A stretch of 64,000 nucleotides of DNA. Origin: Pseudoxanthomonas mexicana (GTDB lineage Bacteria > Pseudomonadota > Gammaproteobacteria > Xanthomonadales > Xanthomonadaceae). The notes beneath the pieces are model-generated. The model was not told the origin of the DNA. It was given only the letters and a program-made list of their open reading frames with translations, and ran no database searches. Location: the NCBI RefSeq assembly GCF_010093385.1, contig NZ_PDWV01000014.1, positions 1-64,000 on the forward strand, in the 5' to 3' direction. Positions 7,861 through 53,379 of this stretch are shown piece by piece; within the stretch, counting starts at the first letter, position 1; the number at the start of each line of letters is the position of its first letter. A program made the translations under genes and the position numbers.

Positions 7861-7914
7861 TGTATGTACCAAGGCCAGCAAGCCGTGGCGCATCGGCAGG
7901 TTCGTCGCGTTCAT
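7855..7914 (-). pseudogene. copB: copB 5' remnant, truncated by an IS21-like end
   Basis: ATG 7914 overlaps the copA stop as ATGA, exactly as in the intact copA-copB junction near 50,912. Only 19 codons remain before a stop created at the border of the TGTCCAG repeats. The peptide begins MNATNLPMRHGLLALVHTAS, resembling the start of a CopB signal peptide without its cleavage region. The outer-membrane copper-binding protein is therefore absent from this locus. Confidence 0.6.
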
Positions 7915-9753
7915 GCGCCGCCCTCCTGCACCTGCACGGCACGCATCATGCCGGCCTCCATGTGATACAGAAGGTGGCAGTGGTAGGCCCACATGCCCAG
8001 CGCATCGGCGCGCACGCGGTAACTGCGCTTGCTGCCCGGCGGCATGTCCACGGTGTGCTTGCGCACCATGAAATTGCCGTTGTCGTCTTCCACATCGCTC
8101 CACATGCCGTGCAGATGGATCGGGTGGGTCATCATCGGGTCGTTGACCAGCACGATGCGCAGGCGCTCGCCGTAATTCAGCCGCAGCGGCTCGGCGCCCG
8201 AGAACTTGATGCCGTTGAAGCCCCAGGCAAACTTCTCCATGTGCCCGGTCAGGTGTAATTCGATCTCGCGGCCCGGGTCGCGGCCGTCGGGATCCTCGAA
8301 CGCGCTCCTGAGCATCGCGTAGGTGAGCACCTTGCGCCCGTTGTCGCGCAGGCCGTTGCCCGGGTCGTCCAGCCGCGAAGTCGGTGTCATGGCCTGGTTG
8401 TCGACCAGCGGATTGCCGGTCTCGCTGGCCGGGTGCGTCTGCATGCCGCTTCCCATGTCCATGCCCTGCATGTTCATCCCGGACATGTCGTGGCCGGCGT
8501 GTTCATTGGCTGGCTGGCCGTGATCCATTCCCGCCATGCCTTGCATCGCACCCATGTCATGGCCGGAATGCTCGCCACCGGCCTGGCCGTGATCCATGCC
8601 CATGTCGGCCATCGTCAGGATCGGCCGTGGATCGACCGTTGGCACGGGTGCCCGCAGGCCTTCGCGCACAGCCAGGGTGCCGCTGACGTAGCCCGTGCGC
8701 CCGGAGTCCTGCGCGAAGATAGTGAAGGCGTCCTGGCCGGACGGCTCGACGATGACATCGAAGGTCTCGGCGACCGCGATGCGGAACTCGTCCACCGTCA
8801 CCGGATGCACGTACTGGCCGTCGGCGGCAACCACGGTCATCTTCAAGCCCGGGATGCGCACGTCGAAGTAGGTCATCGCCGAGCCGTTGATGAAGCGCAG
8901 GCGGATCTTCTCGCCGGAACGGAACAACCCGGTCCAGTTGCCGAGCGAAGTCGTGCCATTCATCAGGTAGGTGTACGTGTTCGCATTGACGTCCGACAGG
9001 TCGGTCGGCGACATGCGCATCTGGCCCCACATTCGGCGGTCGGCCAGCGTGGCTTTCAGGCTGTCCTCGCGCGCATCGCGGAAGAAGTCGCCGACCGTGC
9101 GCATGTAGTAGTTGTCGTACATCGACATCTTCTTCAGCCGCGAGAACAACGCGGCTGCATCCAGATCGGTCCAGTCGCTCAGCATCACCACGTAATCGCG
9201 GTCATAGGCGAAAGGTTCGGGCGCGATCGGGTCTATGACCAATGGCCCGTACAGGCCCGCTTGTTCCTGGAAGCCGGAATGGCTGTGGTACCAGTAGGTA
9301 CCGCCTTGCTGCACGGTGAAGCGGTAGTGATAGGTCTCGCCACGGCCGATGCCGTTGAAGCTCAGCCCGGGCACGCCATCCATAGTTGGCTGGCAGCAGG
9401 ATGCCGTGCCAGTGGATTGAGGTGTCGTGACCGTGGATCGAACCGGCGGGCAGCGCGTTGGAGACGCGCAAGTTGACCGTGGTGCCTTCACGCCAACGCA
9501 GTAGCGGCGCCGGGATCGAGCCATTGACAGCGATCGCTGGTCGCGTGCGCCCAGTGAAATTCATTGGCGTCTCGCCAATGACCAAGTCGAACTCGGTGCC
9601 TGACAGCACGTTGGGATTGCCAGGGCCCTTGATGGCCCAACTGCTCTTGGGCCACAGCCCCAGGCCGGCGATGGCACCACCAGCCGCCAGGCCCTGCACA
9701 AAGCGGCGTCGCGACGGCTTGTGCTGGCCGTCGGCGGGAAAGTCGGATGACAT
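7911..9753 (-). pseudogene. copA: copA multicopper oxidase, frameshifted copy
   Basis: This is a second copy of the periplasmic Cu(I)-oxidising multicopper oxidase CopA. The first segment starts at ATG 9753 with a Tat signal (SRRRFVQG) and reads to the conserved HWHG-ILLPAN region. An extra base at about 9384 (the + strand reads CATAGTT where the intact copy has CATGTT) then shifts the frame. The second segment continues to TGA 7911 with HSHSG, a Met/His-rich insert (MDHGQ, GHDM repeats), HPIHLHG and the C-terminal [13 protein letters not shown] copper ligands. Reassembled, it would be about 614 residues, like the intact copy at 50,912-52,780. With copB also missing, the locus looks decayed. 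A sequencing error at 9384 is the only alternative. Confidence 0.85.
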
Positions 9754-9855
9754 TGTGAACTCCGTGGGTAGCGTCGGGTCATGGCCAGCGGCGTGCGGGC
9801 CATGCGCCATGCGAAACCGTTGCAGCAAGGCTGCAGACGGAAACGGGCGATATGT

Positions 9856-9871
9856 GGCGCTATGCAGCGCC
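9856..9871 (-). promoter_or_regulatory. Stem-loop 9 nt after the copL stop
   Basis: A perfect 6-bp stem GGCGCT-ATGC-AGCGCC begins after 9 nt following the copL TAA and lies before copA. The same gap separates stop and hairpin at the two other CopL-like genes (52,868-52,884 and 37,857-37,875), although the stem sequences differ. There is no T-run, so it is not an ordinary terminator; a pausing or translation-control role is inferred. Confidence 0.55.
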
Positions 9872-9880
9872 GAGGGACGC

Positions 9881-10258
9881 TTAACCGATTGGAGGTCGGA
9901 TCAGGTGTGGCAGGGCGGGAGTCGCGTGCCCAAGCGACAGCGGACGCAAGCTCCTAGGGTGCTCGATCTGCACCGGAGCGAAGGTCGTCATCGACACGGC
10001 GACCGGGGACGAGTGCATGCAGACGGAACGGCAGGCACTGGAATCGGAACCACAGCAATCGGGCGCTGCAGAGTCGGCTGGGGCTGCCATGCCATCGGAT
10101 TTCACCGAGGCGGCATGGCGTTCATGGCATGGAGCTGAGGCAATCGTCTTCTGCGCCGGCGCAGCGACCGACGATGCAGCTCCATGTGCCATGTGCACGG
10201 ACGCCATCGCCGTCGTCGCCCCATTAAGAATCAAGGCAACGCTCAACAGCACCCGCAA
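9881..10258 (-). CDS. copL: CopL family metal-binding leader protein (copy 1)
   Basis: CopL is a short, exported, Cys/His-rich protein needed for copper-induced expression of copAB in Xanthomonas and Stenotrophomonas. Here a hydrophobic N-terminus is followed by Cys-rich motifs (DCCGSDSSACRSVCMHSS) and the family ending LPHLIRPPIG. The only workable start is TTG 10258. Similarity to CopL copy 2 continues upstream (residues SAWAI), but no ATG or GTG is available there, so the start may have decayed. It precedes the broken copA by 127 nt in the same order as the intact locus. It could still be translated but probably controls nothing useful here. Confidence 0.7.
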   Translation of the reverse strand: MRVLLSVALILNGATTAMASVHMAHGAASSVAAPAQKTIASAPCHERHAASVKSDGMAAPADSAAPDCCGSDSSACRSVCMHSSPVAVSMTTFAPVQIEHPRSLRPLSLGHATPALPHLIRPPIG

Positions 10259-11813: not shown

Positions 11814-12641
11814 CTACGTGGTCTTGGAAGCGGGTTTTCGCTGGCGCGGTGTGGCGGCCTTCTTTGCCGTGGTTCGGCGCGAGCCCGACGTAGCCAACAG
11901 GGCATCTAGGCGGGCACGGGCCGCGGCACTCTCGCGCTCTGCCGCATGTTGGGCATTCTCCGCCGTCCGCTGAGCCTGGCCGGCGGCTTGCAAGGCGCGG
12001 GTGTGCTCACGCGCCTGCGTGCTCAGTTGCGCCTTCGTCGCCTTCACCTCCTGGCGGAGCCGATCGATCTCGGCAAAGCCGCGGTCCTCGGCCTGGCGCA
12101 GATGGGCTTGCAGCGCCTCACGCTCGGCCGCTGCGGCGGTGCGCTCTTGCTCCACGCGGTCCAGCGCTGCCTGGAGCTGCGTTTCCTGGGCGCGATTGCG
12201 TTGCTGGAGCTCCTCGTTCTGGCGCTGCAGATGGCCGACTTGGCTGGCCAATTCGTCGGCGCGCTGCGTACTGATGGCCAAGGCCGCCTCGGCAGACTGG
12301 GTGGCGGCGGTGGCCTGCTGCGCCTGGGTCTGGGCCTGGCGGACCTGATCGCCGGCAGCGGCCAACTGCGCCGCTAGGGCGGCCGGGGTGTCGGTCAGCC
12401 GCTGGCGCTCGGGCACCAGCGTAGCCTCAGCCTGCTGGCGTCCGGCCGCCAGCGCCAGCCCCCAGATCTGGGCTAAGGCCGGGCCCACGGCCTCCGGCAC
12501 CGCCGGCATTTTCAGCCGGTGCTGCAGGCGTTCTGCCAGCTGCATCCACCACATATCCAGCAGCGGTCCGATCGTGTTCGGCGAGCCGCGTCCCAGGGCC
12601 TGCCGTACGCGTTCAACCGTAGGCCGCTCGCCGGCGCCCAA
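11814..12641 (-). CDS. KfrA-like DNA-binding coiled-coil protein, start unclear
   Basis: The N-terminal part (GERPTVERVRQALGRGSPNTIGPLLDMWW) is the plasmid replication-region DNA-binding domain of KfrA-type proteins. Residues about 70-250 form a long alanine/glutamine-rich coiled coil, and the tail is basic (RRTTAKKAATPRQRKPASKTT). Such proteins bind their own promoters and help plasmid or element maintenance. TTG 12641 is only the first possible start. Similarity extends about 14 codons upstream (VFAAADTL) with no ATG or GTG before an in-frame stop, so the 5' end seems rearranged. It is distinct from the kfrA at 54,740 in sequence and domain subtype. Confidence 0.7.
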   Translation of the reverse strand: MGAGERPTVERVRQALGRGSPNTIGPLLDMWWMQLAERLQHRLKMPAVPEAVGPALAQIWGLALAAGRQQAEATLVPERQRLTDTPAALAAQLAAAGDQVRQAQTQAQQATAATQSAEAALAISTQRADELASQVGHLQRQNEELQQRNRAQETQLQAALDRVEQERTAAAAEREALQAHLRQAEDRGFAEIDRLRQEVKATKAQLSTQAREHTRALQAAGQAQRTAENAQHAAERESAAARARLDALLATSGSRRTTAKKAATPRQRKPASKTT

Positions 12642-35046: not shown

Positions 35047-37767
35047 TTACCAGTGGTATCCCACGCGGGCATACCAACGACGACCCAGCAGGTCATACGT
35101 CATCGTGTCGGTATTGGCGTCGGTGTAGCTCTGGATAAGCGGGGCTTTCTTGTCGTACAGGTTGTCGATGCCGAAGGACACATCGAAGGTCTTGTTCGGT
35201 GCGTACTTGAGCTGGACATTGTGGTAGGTCACGCTGGGTGCGTGATCGCCAATGTCGCCGGGGCTGGCATTGATGTCATCGGCCTTGCCGATGTACTGCA
35301 AGCTGTAAGAACCGGACCAGGCTTCGCGTTCCATCGTCAGCGAGGTCAAGGCGCGCCAGTGAGTAAAGCTGCCACGGCCACCGGTGATCTTGCCGGCGTA
35401 CTCGATCACATCCGCGCCCGGGAACGGCCGCACGTCGTACTGGTCCAGATAGGACACATCCACGCTCAAGGTCGAATCGAACCCAGCAACCGCGAACTCG
35501 TACAGACCACCCAGGTCGATGCCCCGTACCCGTTCGTTGGCCGCATTGACCGGCTGGGACGACAGGAAGTCCACTTCACCGGTGATCGGATTGCGGGTGA
35601 AGTTGTCATTGCCGCAGAACGGATGCGCCAAGCCCGGGGTGTTGTAGCAGATCGACAGCTTGGTTGAGCCATCGATACGCTGGATCGCGTTGTCGATCTT
35701 GATGTTGAAGTAGTCCACCGTCAGCGTCAGTCCCGGCAAGAAGCTCGGCGTCCAGACCGCACCCACGGTCAGGGACTTGGCATCTTCCGGCTCCAGGTCA
35801 GGATTGCCGCCGGAGGTGGTCAGGATCGTGTTGCCCGGCTGTACGTAACCTGCCGGCACGCCGTACGCCTGACAGTTCTGACGCACTACCGAATCAGCCG
35901 GCAAGCTGCTCCAGCCGCTACAGGGATCGGTCGTGGTCAGGTTGCCCTCGGCTACGCCACCAAACAATTCGGGGATGTTGGGGATACGGAAAGCCGTGGC
36001 GTAGTTGGCGCGCACCTTCAAGGACGGCACGATCTGCCAATCCAGGCCCACCTTGTAATTCACGTCTTCGCCGAACAGGTCATAGTCGGAATAGCGCACG
36101 GCGGCATTGAGCGTCAGGCTCTCGGCGATCACGCTGTCCTGAAGCAGCGGCACGGCAAACTCGGCGAAGGCTTCCTTGGCCGTGTACTCACCGGCGATCG
36201 GATCCTGTTGGTTCGTGTTGGCAATGCCCAGTACCGTCAGCGGATCGGGATCGCGCCAACCACGCTCCTTGCGAACCTCGATGCCAGAGGCAAAGCCCAC
36301 CCAACCGGCCGGCATCTCGAATAGCTGGCCGCTGATGTTGGCGGTGAAGCTCTTCTGGTCGTTGCCGCCGTTGTCGCGCGTCCTGAACAGGATGTAGTTG
36401 AGCACCTCGGGGGTCAGGTCGCCGTAGCCGAGATAGTCACCGCAGGGGATCGCCGCGCCGGGCGTGTTGCTGCACAGCGCGGTGTTGAGCGTGTCATCCA
36501 CCCGGTCCAGGTTCGCCACATTGGTCGAGCCATCCACACCAGTGTTGCGGCCCCAATTCAGCGCGGCCGACCAGTCCCAGTTCATGCCCAACTGGCCTTC
36601 AATGCCCGCGACCACGCGGAAGGTATTGGTTTCCTGGAAGAACTCGCGTGGGCCGGCCTCTTCCAGACGGCGGCGCTGCAGCAGCAGGTCTTGGCCGGTC
36701 GGGTTGGTCGGGTGGCCGGCCGCAATATTGATCGGTCGATAGACACCCAGGCTGCCGGGCGTGGCCAACTGGTCGGACTGGCGGTTGGTGAACATCAACT
36801 CGGTGAACACGCGCGTGGTTTCATTCACAGTGCTGTCGCCGAACAGGCTGAAGCTCAAACGCTTGATCGGATTGACGGCATTGAGATAGGGATTGCCGTT
36901 GTAGTTATGCTTGGCCGCCGAATACGGTTCATAGAAGTCCCCGTCACCATTGGGATCCTGGTTGAAGTTCACGCGCGAGCCGTCGGCTAGCAATGCGCGC
37001 CCACCGATGGTGGCCGAGCTGCCCACACATTCGAGTTGCCCGTCGACCTCACCCAAGCCGCACGGTGCGCGTGAGGCCATGTTGACCGCGCCGGTCTCCG
37101 AGTAGTTGATGCCGGCCATCAACGAACCGCGGTCTGACGTAATACCCCAGGCGAAATCGAACGACTTTTCTTCGCCATCACTTTCGAAGGTCTGTCCGTA
37201 CCGCACCGCCGCCTCGGCACCGTCGTAGTTCTTCTTGGTGATGATGTTCACCACACCCGCCACGGCATCGGCACCGTAGATGGCTGAGGCACCGTCCTTG
37301 AGGACCTCGATCCGCTCGATCAGCGCTACGGGGATGATGTTCAGGTCCACCGAGCTGTTGGCACCGGTGCCGCCATTGACCACACGACGACCATTGAGCA
37401 GAACCAGCGTGCGGTTAATGCCCAAGCCGCGCAGATTGACCTGGGTAGTGCCGTAGCCGTTCTCGGCCCAGTAGGCATTGGACTGGCTGCCGGCAAAACC
37501 GGCCGAGGCCGGCAGGCGCTGCAGCAGCGTCTCCACTGAAGTGGCGCCGGAGCGCTCGATGGCTTCGGCATCCACGACGCTGACCGGGCCGACGCCGGAA
37601 ATCTGGAGCCGCTTGATGTGACTGCCGGTGACCTGGACGGTGTCCAGCGTCTTGGCCGACTCGCTCGTGGCGCCCTGTTCAGCCTGCTGAGCCAGAGCCA
37701 CCGTGGAAAAACCGGCGCACAGAAGGGCACCGACGGATACCGCCAAAGGATTGCGCTTGAAGTACAT
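35047..37767 (-). CDS. TonB-dependent receptor without STN domain
   Basis: A 906-residue outer-membrane receptor. ATG 37767 begins a signal peptide (AVSVGALLCAGFSTVALA). A TonB-box region (TLDTVQVTGSHIKR), plug and barrel ending RVGYHW follow. It is a clear paralog of the receptor at 27,711 with long identical stretches, but lacks the N-terminal signalling domain. Its mRNA begins with the CopL-like gene 117 nt upstream, with a stem-loop in between, and that gene starts beside a HutC operator. The probable ligand is a metal complex, possibly with histidine; this is inferred from neighbours. Confidence 0.88.
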   Translation of the reverse strand: MYFKRNPLAVSVGALLCAGFSTVALAQQAEQGATSESAKTLDTVQVTGSHIKRLQISGVGPVSVVDAEAIERSGATSVETLLQRLPASAGFAGSQSNAYWAENGYGTTQVNLRGLGINRTLVLLNGRRVVNGGTGANSSVDLNIIPVALIERIEVLKDGASAIYGADAVAGVVNIITKKNYDGAEAAVRYGQTFESDGEEKSFDFAWGITSDRGSLMAGINYSETGAVNMASRAPCGLGEVDGQLECVGSSATIGGRALLADGSRVNFNQDPNGDGDFYEPYSAAKHNYNGNPYLNAVNPIKRLSFSLFGDSTVNETTRVFTELMFTNRQSDQLATPGSLGVYRPINIAAGHPTNPTGQDLLLQRRRLEEAGPREFFQETNTFRVVAGIEGQLGMNWDWSAALNWGRNTGVDGSTNVANLDRVDDTLNTALCSNTPGAAIPCGDYLGYGDLTPEVLNYILFRTRDNGGNDQKSFTANISGQLFEMPAGWVGFASGIEVRKERGWRDPDPLTVLGIANTNQQDPIAGEYTAKEAFAEFAVPLLQDSVIAESLTLNAAVRYSDYDLFGEDVNYKVGLDWQIVPSLKVRANYATAFRIPNIPELFGGVAEGNLTTTDPCSGWSSLPADSVVRQNCQAYGVPAGYVQPGNTILTTSGGNPDLEPEDAKSLTVGAVWTPSFLPGLTLTVDYFNIKIDNAIQRIDGSTKLSICYNTPGLAHPFCGNDNFTRNPITGEVDFLSSQPVNAANERVRGIDLGGLYEFAVAGFDSTLSVDVSYLDQYDVRPFPGADVIEYAGKITGGRGSFTHWRALTSLTMEREAWSGSYSLQYIGKADDINASPGDIGDHAPSVTYHNVQLKYAPNKTFDVSFGIDNLYDKKAPLIQSYTDANTDTMTYDLLGRRWYARVGYHW

Positions 37768-37856
37768 GGGTTCTCTCTCCCCCGAAGGGCAATGCATGCG
37801 TATGACCCTGGTGCCCCAGACGTGGGGGCCTATGCGACATCAGGGCGTGCGTAGAC

Positions 37857-37875
37857 GTCGCCAATCAATGGCGAC
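37857..37875 (-). promoter_or_regulatory. Stem-loop between the CopL-like gene and the TonB receptor
   Basis: A perfect 7-bp stem GTCGCCA-TTGAT-TGGCGAC begins after 9 nt following the CopL-like stop codon. The same 9-nt gap occurs at both other copL genes with different stem sequences. No T-run follows, so a regulatory stem is more likely than a terminator. Confidence 0.55.
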
Positions 37876-37884
37876 CAAGCAGCA

Positions 37885-38304
37885 TTAGCCGATGGGAGGT
37901 CGGAACAGCCGGGATACCTGTCGTCGCAGCGGCGGCAACTCAGGCGTAGGTAGGTAGGTGCTCGTCAGGGCGTGCTGGGCGGCAAAGATGACCGGCACAC
38001 GCCCGGCGAAGAAGGTGAGCACACAGCTGCAGTCGCAGGAGGTGGTGCTGCAGTCGCACTGATGATCGTTCTGATCACCCTGCCCGGCTCGCTTGCCACC
38101 GGGAAGAATTTTGTTGCAATCGTTACTAATCTTGGCGCGTTCATTGACACGCGCGCCGCCATGCACCGAGTGGGTGCCATTCACCGCACCTGGGGGAGGA
38201 ATATGCCGCACGGCCATCCGCGTGGTGGCCTGCGCGCTCAGGATCCCATCCGCGCAGAGCACGAGGATCAGGAACATACGCAGTAGCACGCGAAGCGAAG
38301 GCAT
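37885..38304 (-). CDS. CopL-like Cys-rich leader protein upstream of a TonB receptor
   Basis: From ATG 38304 the 139-residue protein has a signal peptide (FLILVLCADGILSAQA), a His/Arg-rich middle, the cluster QCDCSTTSCDCSC (about residues 90-102) and the CopL ending RLFRPPIG. The last codons match those of the two copper copL genes. Here it precedes a TonB receptor instead of copA. Metal binding by the nascent Cys cluster while the ribosome passes the RPPIG end would resemble the copper-responsive upstream ORF CruR described for a Bordetella TonB receptor. That parallel is inference. A HutC operator lies 24 nt upstream of its start. Confidence 0.7.
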   Translation of the reverse strand: MPSLRVLLRMFLILVLCADGILSAQATTRMAVRHIPPPGAVNGTHSVHGGARVNERAKISNDCNKILPGGKRAGQGDQNDHQCDCSTTSCDCSCVLTFFAGRVPVIFAAQHALTSTYLPTPELPPLRRQVSRLFRPPIG

Positions 38305-38434: not shown

Positions 38435-39160
38435 ATGGACGAACCCAAGCCGCACTACCAGAAGCTCAAGCACTTCATCCTGCGTCACATCACCAACGGC
38501 GACTGGCCCGCGCGCAGTCGCGTCCCCAGCGAGAACGAACTGACGGCCAAGTTCGGCTTGTCTCGCATGACAGTGAATCGAGCGCTGCGCGAGTTGACCG
38601 ATGCCGGCGTACTAACCCGGGTGCAAGGTGTCGGCACGTTCGTCGCCGGCCCCAAGGCCGAATCGGCGATGTTCGAGGTGCGCAATATTCGCGACGAGAT
38701 TCAGTCACGCGGCCAGACACACTCGGTCCAAGTGCTGATCTGCGAGACGGTCGAGGCGCGCTCCAGTGTGACGACCAACTTCGGCCTGACGCCGGGCACG
38801 GAGCTGTTCCACAGTCGCCTGCTCCACCACAGCGATGACAAGCCGGTGCAGTTGGAGGATCGCTTTGTGCAACCCAGCGTGGCGCCGGATTACCTGGACA
38901 TCGATTTCCACACCGAGATTCCGCATCAGTACTTGATGCGCGTTGCGCCGCTGGAGCGCGCCGAACATGTGATTGAAGCCGAGACGGCCAGCAAGCGTCT
39001 GGCTGCGCAACTGAAGATCAACGAAGGCGATCCGTTGCTGGTGCTGACCCGACGTACGTGGTCGCGCGGACAGGTGGCCAGCTTTGTGCGGTTGATTCAC
39101 CCGGCATCTCGTTACCGCTTTGTGGGCACCTTCCAGGTTGGCGCCCCCCTGACCCCTTGA
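38435..39160 (+). CDS. hutC: Histidine utilization repressor HutC
   Basis: A 241-residue GntR/HutC-type repressor. The winged HTH is [58 protein letters not shown]; the UTRA effector domain follows from about residue 90 ([23 protein letters not shown]) and ends [11 protein letters not shown]. Urocanate is the usual inducer. Two GT-N-TA-N-AC operators lie just upstream. It starts the hutCUHG operon with 7 nt to hutU. Confidence 0.93.
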
Positions 39161-49643: not shown

Positions 49644-50915
49644 TTAGAACCAGGTACGAAGGCCGATGACCAAGCGCGTGTCTTCAAAAGACTCGCCATG
49701 ATCGCGTCGCATGTCTGCGGTATTGCCAAACGCACGCTCGTACACCACGCCGATGTAGGGAGCGAACTTTCGGGTGAACTCATAACGAAGTCGCAGGCCC
49801 GCCTCAGCGGTACTCAGACCCGAACCTATTCCGCGCAATGGATCGTTCTTGCCATACGCCGTGACCTCCACCAGCGGCTGCAGGATCAGCCGATTGGTCA
49901 GCAGCAGTTCGTACTCGGCCTCGACATTGGCAGCAGTCTGGCCGCCTTCGCCGAGATAGGCTGTGGCGGATACTTCGAACTTCATCGGTGCCAAGCCCTG
50001 TACGCCGATAGCGGCGAAGTTCTGCGAAGCCCCCGGCTTGAAGTCATGGCGCACACCGGCTACCACATCCCACCACGTGGAGATACTGCGGCCGTAGAGC
50101 ACTTCCAGATCAGCCGACTCGGTCTGACCATCTGTGCGTTCGCCTTCACTGCGGAACCAGACGCGATTGAGGTCCGTACCGATCCAACCCTGACCCTCCC
50201 AACCCAGCCCGGTGCCCGGATCGGCATCCCAGGCTTCCAGGCGATTGAGCAGTACGTAGCTCTTGATCGAATTGTCATGCACCGGATGCGCGTGTGCGGG
50301 CGCGATGGCCGCCTGACGATCAGCCTCGGTCACCGCAGGAATCGGGGTGCGCGGCTGCGTTGGTGCGACAGGCCCATGTCCCATCTGACTGTGGTCCATG
50401 CCCTCCATCGATTGCATGCCAGCTTCTGGCGTAGCGGATGCGGGCGAACCGTGGCCCATCTGCGAATGGTCCATCCCCTGCATCGCAGGCGTGGACGTGC
50501 TGGAGGCGTCGGACGCAGCGGGCTGTGCCATCTGACTGTGATCCATGCCCTGCATCGGCTGCGTCTGCGCTTTGGGCGCTGCAGGTGTACTCGCGGGCGA
50601 GCTGTGCCCCATCTGCGAGTGGTCCATGCCCTGCATGGCAGGCTCGGCTGCTTGAGCCGGCGGCGCGGCATGGCCCATCGCCGCATGATCGATAGTCGCT
50701 TCGCTGGTCTTGGCCGGTGTTGTAGGTTTGGGGGCTGGCGCAGGCTTTGATGTCGGCGCCTGATGTGCAGAGTGATCCTGAGCCTGGGTCTGCGCGCCCT
50801 GCTCCATCGGCATGGAGCCGTGCTGCATGGATTGGGCGCTGGCCGCATTGGCCAGGGCCAGCGAGATAGCCAGGGTCAGCGCAGTCAGGGTGGTATTGCG
50901 TCTATTGATGTTCAT
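49644..50915 (-). CDS. copB: Outer-membrane copper resistance protein CopB
   Basis: A 423-residue protein from ATG 50915, which overlaps the copA stop as ATGA. A signal peptide ends ANAASAQ. Residues about 25-195 are Met/His-rich with repeated MDHSQMGH-type units that bind copper. The C-terminal half is the beta-barrel CopB domain ([30 protein letters not shown] end). It sequesters or exports periplasmic copper at the outer membrane. The intact gene contrasts with the 19-codon stub at 7,855. Confidence 0.92.
50383..50640 (-). repeat. Four coding repeats [11 protein letters not shown] in copB
   Basis: Four near-identical units (starts about 50,383, 50,456, 50,527 and 50,609) encode MDHSQM motifs separated by Ala/Ser/Pro linkers. 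They are metal-binding modules and a source of copy-number variation by slippage. Confidence 0.75.
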
Positions 50916-52780
50916 TCGTCGACCCTCACCGTGCGCATCATTCCGGCTTCCATGTGATAGAGCAGGTGGCAATGGAACGCCCAGCTGCCCAACGCATCGG
51001 CACGCACGCGATACGTACGTCGGCTGCCTGGCGGCATGTCCACCGTGTGCTTGCGCACCATGAAGTTGCCGCTATCGTCTTCCACATCGCTCCACATGCC
51101 GTGCAAATGGATCGGGTGGGTCATCATCGTGTCGTTGACCAATACGATGCGCATGCGCTCGCCGTAGTTCAGCCGTAGCGGCTCGACATCGGAAAACTTC
51201 TGACCATTGAAACCCCAGGAGAATTTCTCCATGTGTCCGGTCAGATGCAGCTCGATCTCGCGACCGGGGTCGCGTCCGTCAGGGTCTTCAAAGGTGCTCT
51301 TGAGCATGGAATACGTCAGTACATGACGGCCGTTATCGCGCAGGCCATTGCCCGGATCGTCCAAGCGCGAAGTCACGCTCATGGCTTGGTTGTCCAACAG
51401 GGGATTGTTGGTCTCGCTGGCAGGGTGTGATTGCATGCCCCCATGCTGCATGCCGGCCATGGCACCATCGCCGGCGGCGGGCATCGCGTGACCCGCATGG
51501 GCCGAGGCCTCATTGCCGCTGGCAGGTGGGGTCATGCCGGGCATGCCCATGGCTGCACCACAGCCGCCTTCCATGCCCTTGCTGCCGCCAGACATATCCA
51601 TCGATCCATGATCCATGCCCATGTCTGCCATCGTCAGCAGCGGCCGGGGATCCACAGACGGAAGAGGCGCGCGTAGTCCTTCGCGCACGGCGAGCGTGCC
51701 GCTGACGTAGCCGGTGCGACCGGAGTCCTGGGCAAAGATGGTGAATGCGTCCTGCCCGGAGGGCTCCACGATCACATCGAAGGTTTCTGCTACTGCAATG
51801 CGGAACTCGTCGACCGAAACCGGATGGACGTACAAGCCATCCGCCGCGACCACGGTCATCTTCAACCCCGGAATACGCACATCGAAGTACGTCATGGCAG
51901 AGCCATTGATGAAACGCAGACGCACCTTCTCGCCACTGCGGAACAACCCGGTCCAGTTGCCCAGAGAGGTCGTGCCGTTCATCAGGTAGGTGTAGGTGTT
52001 GGCGTTGACGTCGGACAGATCCGTGGGCGTCATTCGCATCACGCCCCACATCTTGCGATCTTCCAACGTGGCCGACAGACCATTGCGCTTCACATCGCGC
52101 GCGAAATCGCCGACCGTGCGCTTGTAGTAGTTGTCATGGCCCGGCATCTTCTTCAAACGATCGAACAGGGCCGTCGGGTCCAGGTCTGTCCAATCGCTCA
52201 GCATCACGACGTAGTCGCGATCGAAGCTGAAAGGCTCTGGCTCCAGTGGATCGATCACGATCGGTCCATAAAGCCCAGCTTGTTCCTGGAAACCTGAGTG
52301 GCTGTGGTACCAGTAGGTTCCGCCCTGATGCAGGGTGAACCTATAGTGGTAGGTCTCACCACGTCCGATGCCGTCAAAGCTCAGGCCCGGCACGCCGTCC
52401 ATGTTGGCCGGCAGAATGATGCCGTGCCAATGGATGGAAGTATCCGTGCCATGGAGGGAGTTGGCCGGCAATGCATTGGAGACACGCAGGTTGACCGTGG
52501 TGCCTTCCCGCCACCGCAGCAACGGCGCCGGAACGGACCCGTTGACCGTGATCGCGGTGCGGGTCTTGCCGGTGAAGTTCATCGGCGTCTCGCCGATGGT
52601 CAGGTCAAACTCGGTGCCCGACAATACGTTGGCTTGTCCGGGGCCCTTGAGCGCCCAACTGGCTTTGGGCCAGAACCCCAATCCTGCGACTGCGCCTCCC
52701 AAGGCCAAGCCTTGGACAAATCGCCGCCGCGAAGGCAGCAGCGGTCCACCATGTGGACCACGAAAATCATCATGCGACAT
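50912..52780 (-). CDS. copA: Multicopper oxidase CopA, intact copy
   Basis: A 622-residue periplasmic multicopper oxidase exported by Tat (SRRRFVQG, then [14 protein letters not shown]). Copper ligands are in HWHG, HSHSG, HPIHLHG and the C-terminal [13 protein letters not shown]. Between the domains is a Met-rich insert ([21 protein letters not shown]) that can take up several extra Cu ions. It oxidises Cu(I) and stores copper. It is 113 nt downstream of copL with a stem-loop between, and its stop overlaps copB. Close paralog of the frameshifted copy at 7,911. Confidence 0.93.
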
Positions 52781-52867
52781 GTAAATGCTCCAAGCGTCGT
52801 GTTGCCACCGGCAGGCGGTGGTACAGAGCGGGTGGCTGGCCTATACAGGCATGCAAGCCACACCAAC

Positions 52868-52884
52868 GGCGCCATTGCGGCGCC
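52868..52884 (-). promoter_or_regulatory. Stem-loop 9 nt after the copL stop (intact locus)
   Basis: A perfect 6-bp stem GGCGCC-ATTGC-GGCGCC between copL and copA. It begins after the same 9-nt gap as at the other two CopL-like genes. No T-run follows on the minus strand. Confidence 0.55.
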
Positions 52885-52893
52885 TAGGGACGC

Positions 52894-53313
52894 TTAGCCG
52901 ATCGGTGGTCGGATCAGATGAGGCAAGGCAGGCGCCGGATGCCCCAAGGGCAGCGGCATGACATCCAGGCCCAAGGCCAGTTGTACCGAAACATGCAGGC
53001 GCGCAGGCAATGCGCTCGCGCACGCGTGCACGCAGGCGCACCGGCACGCAGACGACTTGCAACAGTCGGGGCCGGCATGATCGCCGTGCCCAGTGCCAGC
53101 CTTTTCAATCGATGTGGCATCGGGATGATGCTCAGCACTGTGATGGGCGACGCAGTCTTCGTCGACTTGCACCGCGGCAGCGACTTCGCTGGCCTGCTCT
53201 TCCATCACCGGATTCATACTGACCGACGCAAACGCCGACCACGCCCCGTTAAGCACGAGCATGGCGATCAGGATCAGTCGCAGTAGAAGTGAGGAGGCTG
53301 ACACGGGCGACAT
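52894..53313 (-). CDS. copL: CopL family metal-binding leader protein (intact locus)
   Basis: A 139-residue protein with a hydrophobic signal (LLLRLILIAMLVLNGAWSAFA), His-rich middle (CVAHHSAEHHPDA), the cluster DCCKSSACRCACVHACAS and the family ending LPHLIRPPIG. copL is required for copper-induced transcription or translation of copAB in Xanthomonas. The last codons form the palindromic CCGACCACCGATCGG and are followed by TAA and, after 9 nt, a stem-loop. It heads copL-copA-copB-copM-copG-copF. The very short upstream region (TTGTCT and TAAAGT just before ATG) suggests a short or absent leader. Confidence 0.88.
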   Translation of the reverse strand: MSPVSASSLLLRLILIAMLVLNGAWSAFASVSMNPVMEEQASEVAAAVQVDEDCVAHHSAEHHPDATSIEKAGTGHGDHAGPDCCKSSACRCACVHACASALPARLHVSVQLALGLDVMPLPLGHPAPALPHLIRPPIG

Positions 53314-53359: not shown

Positions 53360-53379
53360 ATCTCAGGCAGGCCTGAGAT
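53360..53379 (-). terminator. Terminator of the XRE regulator gene
   Basis: ATCTCAGG-CAGG-CCTGAGAT is a perfect 8-bp stem. On the minus strand it is followed by TTTTG. It lies 110 nt after the XRE stop and isolates that gene from copL. Confidence 0.65.

Follow-up and report, generated by a model that had tools for sequence, protein, structure and literature searches.

In Xanthomonas, copper-regulated expression of copA was reported to need copL, which did not act in trans (Voloudakis 2005, as quoted in PMC9973294), and in the literature that we covered no worked-out mechanism for this requirement was found. How such a gene could switch the operon behind it is the question raised by the window, the whole stretch of 64,000 nucleotides of Pseudoxanthomonas mexicana analysed here, which carries three copL genes. 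Our results suggest that CopL is probably a nascent-chain arrest leader, and more specifically an upstream ORF that acts on the ribosome, in which an arrest set by metal at a C-terminal RPPI motif would control transcription of the operon, with a hairpin located between ribosome and polymerase. Arrest, metal dependence, attenuation and what the hairpin does are all parts that we infer from sequence patterns, and we put the probability of this reading at about 0.55.

The three genes are Cys-rich leader ORFs on the minus strand, and in a profile search all of them exceeded the 40-bit cut-off of the NCBIfam family CopL_fam (NF033807); Pfam gave no match up to E 10 for any of the three. The first, copL1 (9881..10258, 100.2 bits), encodes 125 residues from a TTG start as listed and ends LIRPPIG-TAA, its RPPIG codons being CGA CCT CCA ATC GGT (9884..9898). 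The second, copL2 (37885..38304, 88.3 bits), is listed from a TTG at 38448, and the ATG at 38304 yields a CopL-sized product of 139 residues that ends LFRPPIG-TAA (CGA CCT CCC ATC GGC, 37888..37902). The third, copL3 (52894..53313, 108.4 bits), also has 139 residues and ends LIRPPIG-TAA (CGA CCA CCG ATC GGC, 52897..52911). By eye, the N-termini of all three proteins appear hydrophobic. What follows them differs: copL3 precedes an intact copA, a multicopper oxidase gene (TIGR01480; 50912..52780, minus strand) that starts 113 nt past the copL3 stop, and copB (49644..50972, minus strand, by family match to PF05275); copL2 precedes a gene for a TonB-dependent receptor (35047..37797, minus strand) that starts 87 nt past the copL2 stop; and copL1 precedes a copA copy that is apparently broken. 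This copy (7911-9828, minus strand) seems to be split over two frames, as ORFs 9202-9828 and 7911-9524, and the leader and hairpin of copL1 are intact. Two further observations concern copL3. Directly upstream of its start lies a perfect palindrome, ATCTCAGGC-AG-GCCTGAGAT (53360-53379), a possible candidate operator judging from its symmetry. Its protein is also 94-100% identical in 21 records (L329-L349), including ones named Stenotrophomonas, Pseudoxanthomonas, Lysobacter and Xanthomonas, and such near-identity across genera suggests a mobile copLAB block.

It had been noted that each of the three ORFs ends in RPPIG codons within a CCGA...TCGG dyad (CCGA-N7-TCGG), followed by TAA, and that a perfect stem-loop lies exactly 9 nt past the TAA, and both statements hold for all three genes. 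The hairpins are GGCGCT-GCAT-AGCGCC behind copL1 (9856..9871, minus strand; 6 bp, 4-nt loop), GTCGCCA-TTGAT-TGGCGAC behind copL2 (37857..37875, minus strand; 7 bp, 5-nt loop) and GGCGCC-GCAAT-GGCGCC behind copL3 (52868..52884, minus strand; 6 bp, 5-nt loop), the last of which begins 18 nt past the Pro-Pro codons. When folded alone as 41-nt segments, those of copL1 (z -2.46) and copL2 (z -2.58) were better than shuffles and that of copL3 (z -0.56) was not. Because none of the three is accompanied by a U-tract, they are not intrinsic terminators, and Rfam returned no match over the gathering score in the window and 10 loci. The copL3 hairpin region (52848-52914) scored 56.3 bits with our covariance model R2, in whose training set the copL3 sequence is included. 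Elsewhere in the window, at 12350-12401 on the minus strand, the RNA model matches weakly and in part, with 21 bits and an E of 7e-4 when only the window is searched and of 0.046 for the genome.

A search of the family gave a CopL match in 315 of 395 genomes, with at least 150 places among the matches listed. From it, from a search with copL2 as query (25 loci) and from a further 5 loci we assembled 140 CopL loci, the remainder being 30 from the family search and 80 that were picked there by hand for genus spread, before their 3' ends were inspected. These reduce to 126 distinct loci and to 89 representatives with less than 85% identity over the 78 nt around the stop, in which the next gene is copA (70), a TonB receptor gene (14) or unassigned (5). 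With hairpin calls restricted to perfect Watson-Crick stems, 53 of the 89 non-redundant loci have a hairpin of at least 5 bp starting 8-11 nt past the stop, compared to chance rates of 5% in dinucleotide shuffles and 18% when the halves are exchanged between loci, a cross-locus control that is our chief argument for covariation. By position, 5-bp hairpins that begin +9, +10 or +11 past the stop occur in 25, 33 and 20 of the 89, respectively, where shuffles would give approximately 1.5-1.7 each. Control ORF ends carry such a hairpin in 1 of 44 cases in the window (2 of 45 if copL2 is counted) and in 2 of the 126 other long distinct frames of the loci. The hairpin behind CopL genes is thus more than chance.

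Covariation was also assessed on a MAFFT alignment (A1) of 74 of the 89 representatives, from which the rows of genus group g17 and loci L005, L057 and L114 were excluded. The named 6-bp stem shows double changes in all six pairs, a count also reached by 23 of 500 shuffles, and its covariation score was reached by none of the 500. Paired cells amount to 73% in the named stem vs 32-54% in versions slid along the alignment; the version slid by +1 has 30 double-change cells vs 27 for the named stem. RNAalifold found no consensus structure on A1, an alignment made on sequence only and not structure-aware. By this score and by the cross-locus control, the stem covaries.

Not every locus conforms. 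No hairpin of at least 5 bp starts within 20 nt in 16 of 88 CopL representatives, and in g17, which we take to be Xanthomonas, the hairpin often lies 13-14 nt from Pro-Pro or is absent, a departure from the 18-19 nt spacing described below. The CopL of Xanthomonas copLAB belongs to the same family. Among 27 loci of more distant CopL-like ORFs collected across the class, 4 are unreadable as leaders, 18 have an RPPI or RPPR tail and 6 have a hairpin starting 8-13 nt past the stop, one of these six coming from the same family. Individual loci also stand out. L005 (G000:C81:2581-2907) is a Cys-rich CopL-like leader that scores 32 bits, below the cut-off, ends FRPPII, lacks a 5-bp hairpin and has a 217-residue ORF behind it; in L114, the usual stop position reads CAA, and the frame continues as RPPIGQVS until the next stop. 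In L079, L085, L101 and L102, of the RPPIxAA/RPPIPAV group, segments of the type CCGC(A)-(T)GCGG-CCGC(A) are seen by eye directly past the stop, and from their sequence they could fold into either of two hairpins that exclude each other, where other loci have a single one.

When a covariance model built from CopL loci was run on the genome of the window, it brought up a further pair of small ORFs (E 4e-4 and 0.04). Located at G000:C82:51760-52140 and G000:C82:81401-81781 (L191), both end RPPIA, are followed by a hairpin past the stop and are rich in His instead of Cys; a pattern search for RPPI followed by a stop recovered both as well. A genome match of model R2 that ranked above the second of these (contig C42, E 0.02) was discarded, since it is no leader and falls within a long reading frame. 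Behind one of the two His-rich leaders lies a gene for an outer-membrane efflux protein (PF02321), which by eye is CzcC-like, and behind the other a gene for a P-type ATPase (E1-E2) that is rich in His; these are the only two loci of the His set whose downstream genes were assigned by family search. Two more His-type leaders of this genome, on C88 (L308) and C81 (L309), have no 5-bp hairpin; overall, the hairpin is present in 5 of the 9 RPP leaders found here. Relatives of the two leaders occur in 95 and 60 of 247 family genomes. The resulting His set comprises 119 loci, 106 of them distinct, and 87 representatives, of which 3 were dropped because their last 9 residues contain no Pro-Pro (in L246, if not in the others, owing to a misread frame); 6 of the 84 remaining end KPPI rather than RPPI, and the hairpin counts refer to the 83 whose tails are two or three residues long. 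In 62 of these 83, a 5-bp hairpin starts 17-20 nt past Pro-Pro, vs 26% across loci, and 12 have no hairpin of at least 5 bp starting within 20 nt.

The arms of these hairpins are diverse, with 41 sequences in 64 CopL hairpins and 28 in 58 hairpins of the His set. The claim that the stems are unrelated in sequence stands to that extent, and has to be softened for the many CopL arms that contain a common GCGCC or CGCC core. Such diversity at one position argues for selection on position and pairing. It also bears on the possibility that CopL is an ordinary secreted metal-binding regulator working as a finished protein, with the palindromes being DNA operators or products of chance. The NCBIfam name of the family, metal-binding regulatory protein, would fit such a role, and the G-U content of the stems (26 G-U vs 22 A-C mismatches, for an expected ratio of 1.39) cannot separate an RNA hairpin from a DNA palindrome. 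The 41 and 28 arm sequences at one position, however, leave no operator consensus; the codon pattern of the leader end, CGACCWCCNATCGSC, has only two exact copies in the genome, both at CopL ends; and the reported lack of action in trans also counts against it. We therefore regard this possibility as very improbable. With up to one mismatch allowed, CGACCWCCNATCGSC has 12 matches in the genome vs 15 for a reversed control pattern.

The end of the leader peptide is conserved in residues and in codons. Ile follows Pro-Pro in all 167 RPP tails of the CopL and His sets. For the first Pro, these tails use CCT 121 times and CCA 18 times, compared to 12 and 19 times, respectively, in a background of 158 Pro-Pro pairs taken from the CopL loci, 113 of which begin with CCG. 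In CopL, the first Pro is encoded by CCT in 74 and by CCA in 9 of the 89 representatives (83 together), with ordinary codons for the second Pro and the Ile. Arg is encoded by CGA in 80 of 89, compared to a CGA share among Arg codons of 3% in the genes downstream and of 13% in the body of CopL. Across the His set, CCT encodes the first Pro in 47 and CCA in 9 of 78, and the Arg codon is free. The CCGA-N7-TCGG dyad, present in all three CopL genes of the window, is complete in only 31 of the 89 representatives, and the 9 variants without CGA keep 0-3 of its 4 pairs, on which grounds the dyad was rejected as an operator or hairpin; the conserved unit is the pair of synonymous choices, CGA and CCT/CCA, and not the full dyad. 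A role of ACCTCC as an anti-Shine-Dalgarno element was rejected as well, with the RPP region pairing with the downstream 140 nt at 5.22 vs 5.07 across loci, and CGA being kept in 8 of the 9 CCA loci. As CGA and CCT/CCA vary separately and no pairing partner was found for them, an effect on decoding is likelier than one on RNA structure. In E. coli, CCU followed by C is reported to be prone to frameshifting and selected against, CCA to be slow, and RPPP to be a strong pauser on which codons have a small effect (PMC8129111); this last point counts against the codons simply strengthening the arrest.

As for the hairpin, the landmark from which its distance is constant is the Pro-Pro codons and not the stop codon. 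In the His set, the median hairpin start past the stop is 10 nt for RPPIx tails (n=19) and 7 nt for RPPIxx tails (n=52; p 2e-7), and the distance to Pro-Pro does not differ between the two (p 0.66), p values that, like all counts here, come from representatives that are related to each other and hence not independent. By the best-hairpin call, the distance from Pro-Pro to the hairpin is 18-19 nt in 46 of 83 His and 32 of 88 CopL representatives, and within 17-20 nt in 58 and 46, respectively; for CopL, the median is 18 nt with RPPIx tails and 17 nt with RPPIxxx tails (5 of 6 of which have a hairpin). The claim that position and structure are kept is thus upheld in the 53 of 89 loci with a hairpin at 8-11 nt, and amended as to the landmark, which is Pro-Pro instead of the stop. 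As a stop can shift by point mutation with the DNA length unchanged, this constancy identifies the landmark and is not by itself a sign of selection, and part of it could be inertia. The same spacing is what speaks against the hairpin being a plain 3' end or exonuclease block, back to which Rho-terminated or processed leader transcripts would be trimmed and which has no relation to arrest, although the leader could still arrest. Conservation of structure free of sequence behind a short ORF would generally suit a nuclease barrier, as would the missing U-tracts in the window, but a nuclease block needs no tie to Pro-Pro, and in both leader sets the spacing is tied to it across tail lengths, mostly within 1-2 nt. 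We consider such a block unlikely.

A second fixed distance lies on the amino-terminal side of the arrest motif. In copL3, the Cys cluster (53020..53064, minus strand) has Cys at -51, -50, -45, -43, -41 and -37 from the Arg of RPP, whose codon is at 52909-52911. The last Cys of the cluster sits 41 residues before Arg in all 14 TonB-linked and in 40 of 70 copA-linked CopLs, and as a Cys is found at 40-43 in the remaining 30, too, all 70 of 70 have one in that range; His-type leaders have their last Cys at 40-41 in 50 of 78 and no Cys whatever in 9 of 78. A residue approximately 41 positions upstream is just outside the exit tunnel of the ribosome, which would place the metal site just beyond the tunnel at the time when Pro-Pro is joined. 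The RPPI end, the codon bias, the sensor spacing, and the hairpin with its spacing are common to copA-linked CopLs, TonB-linked CopLs and His-rich leaders. In the two-ruler reading given below, the head of the module would be exchangeable, with Cys for copper and His for what are presumably operons of zinc, cadmium or cobalt efflux.

Position also helps to decide what the hairpin could do. The front edge of a stalled ribosome is located around +16 from the first base of the P site. If the first Pro is placed in the P site and the second in the A site, with the CruR toeprint as a guide, the stem begins around +25, approximately 8-9 nt ahead of the ribosome front, and a stalled ribosome would not melt it. 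This is at odds with the switch of the original prediction, in which ribosome passage over the RPPIG codons alters the folding of the stem-loop, and with the related mode of CutF and SecM, in which a ribosome stalled at RPP would melt the stem-loop and expose the next Shine-Dalgarno site. Such a mode has precedent, given that the CutF and SecM stem-loops cover the downstream Shine-Dalgarno site (PMC9973294, PMC10987492) and that CopL belongs to the CutF-like network (PMC9973294). In CopL, however, the stem ends approximately 55-90 nt upstream of the copA Shine-Dalgarno site, whose unpaired probability is 0.43 vs 0.40 with shuffled upstream sequence (less open than shuffles in 12 of 30), and no third strand competes for the hairpin arms, real and cross-locus complementarity being about equal in four coding and intergenic regions of 64 loci. 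The same search revealed no second RNA segment of the kind needed for a trp-type alternative-hairpin attenuator. We accordingly find melting of the stem-loop distinctly unlikely, and the predicted change in folding found no support. With the copA Shine-Dalgarno site unmasked and no rival partner for the stem, the step under control is more likely to be transcription, or the stability of the mRNA, than access to the next start site. As for the broader proposal that CopL acts during its own translation, it is favored, on sequence grounds, by the fixed sensor spacing, the constant RPPI, the unusual Pro and Arg codons and the hairpin placed by Pro-Pro, and it survives here without the folding switch.

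According to the arrest reading, to which we return, the Cys cluster would be located just outside the exit tunnel when Pro-Pro occupies the P and A sites, and binding of metal to the emerged cluster would set how long the ribosome is arrested at R-P-P-I, a strong pause that is perhaps tuned by the CGA-CCU codons. An arrested ribosome would shield the leader mRNA at its C-rich end, so that RNA polymerase would continue; a ribosome that terminates would expose this end and allow termination, most likely Rho-dependent, in the intergenic region of approximately 85-130 nt. The hairpin, 18-19 nt past Pro-Pro, would form ahead of the arrested ribosome without being melted and without masking the next Shine-Dalgarno site, and its likely role, on the mRNA between ribosome and polymerase, would be that of a barrier to Rho or nucleases, or of a polymerase pause. 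For copA-linked CopLs metal should prolong the arrest; where a TonB receptor gene follows, its effect may be the reverse, as it is in CruR. Base composition was examined with regard to these steps: copA-linked CopLs have more C than G over the last 40 nt to Pro-Pro (C/G 1.75-4.15 per 10 nt), as does the His set, and TonB-linked CopLs only over the Pro-Pro codons themselves; behind the hairpin, a modest C-rich stretch is seen in the His set only. No general polymerase-pause consensus was found behind the hairpin in the copA-linked or other sets, and a weak excess of TGYG 10-13 nt behind it (11 occurrences in 38 copA-linked loci) was not seen in the other sets. Put as a module with two rulers, in which a swappable Cys/His head stands approximately 41 residues before a codon-constrained RPPI arrest, and a hairpin free in sequence stands 18-19 nt past Pro-Pro and works at the front of the arrested ribosome, neither by Shine-Dalgarno unmasking nor by alternative-hairpin attenuation, the proposal is tentative, and we would give it somewhat less than even odds.

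One of the closest parallels is CruR of Bordetella, a DUF2946 upstream ORF before a TonB receptor gene. Like CopL, it has a C-terminal Pro-Pro motif that follows a Cys sensor at constant spacing, and it occupies a leader position with an intergenic region of approximately 100 nt or more; a TonB receptor gene is likewise found behind one group of CopLs. In CruR, the spacing from CXXC to RAPP is fixed at 45 residues, and a rut site within the leader is covered by the ribosome during arrest, its release letting Rho act (PMC9426467); toeprinting of this arrest located Pro-Pro in the P and A sites (PMC12992588). The resemblance noted originally is thus one of logic and not of motif: CruR ends RAPP, CopL and the His-type leaders end RPPI, and DUF2946 (PF11162) does not match the CopLs of the window, the His-type leader L191 reaching 13.1 bits for a cut-off of 23.7. 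In addition, the CruR codons are reported to be frequent, in contrast to the rare CGA-CCU of CopL, and no placed hairpin such as that of CopL is known to us for CruR. CutF, of the Rhodobacter cutFOG operon, shares with CopL a Cys-rich leader, C-terminal prolines, a multicopper oxidase gene behind and an intergenic stem-loop; it ends GPPPRL and its stem-loop masks the Shine-Dalgarno site, whereas the CopL hairpin lies directly behind the leader and masks nothing that we could find. The 2023 CutF paper counts CopL as CutF-like (cluster 29) and possibly isofunctional with CutF, raises the idea of an arrest leader for CopL, and describes His-only clusters in CutF-like proteins before HupE/UreJ genes (PMC9973294). 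It also reports that the C-terminus of CutF alone did not stall a reporter (PMC9973294), which weighs against arrest in CopL, as does the difference between RPPI and RAPP. SecM and the RAPP arrest peptides have in common with CopL a C-terminal Arg/Pro arrest that governs the next gene, but the SecM stem-loop covers the Shine-Dalgarno site (PMC10987492) and its input is protein export and not metal. TnaC, whose input is a small molecule, has to our knowledge neither a Pro-Pro arrest nor a placed hairpin. Its stalled ribosome blocks Rho (summarised in PMC9973294), a logic like the one proposed for CopL.

Neither the RPPI rule nor the codon bias nor the spacing of the hairpin was found described in the open-licence literature that we covered. 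While the idea of CopL as an arrest leader is already in print, the two rulers, the rule for codons and the use of one module for different metals appear to be new. The fixed distance from the arrest codons to the hairpin is a numeric rule that can be tested directly, and, if the proposal is true, the bias for CCU-C, which E. coli is reported to select against (PMC8129111), would mean that the choice among synonymous codons is linked to regulation. Copper bactericides are reported to be widely used against plant-pathogenic Xanthomonas, and the switching of these operons is therefore also of practical interest. If our reading is correct, the leader itself would be the sensor, and one module would serve several metals in one bacterial family.
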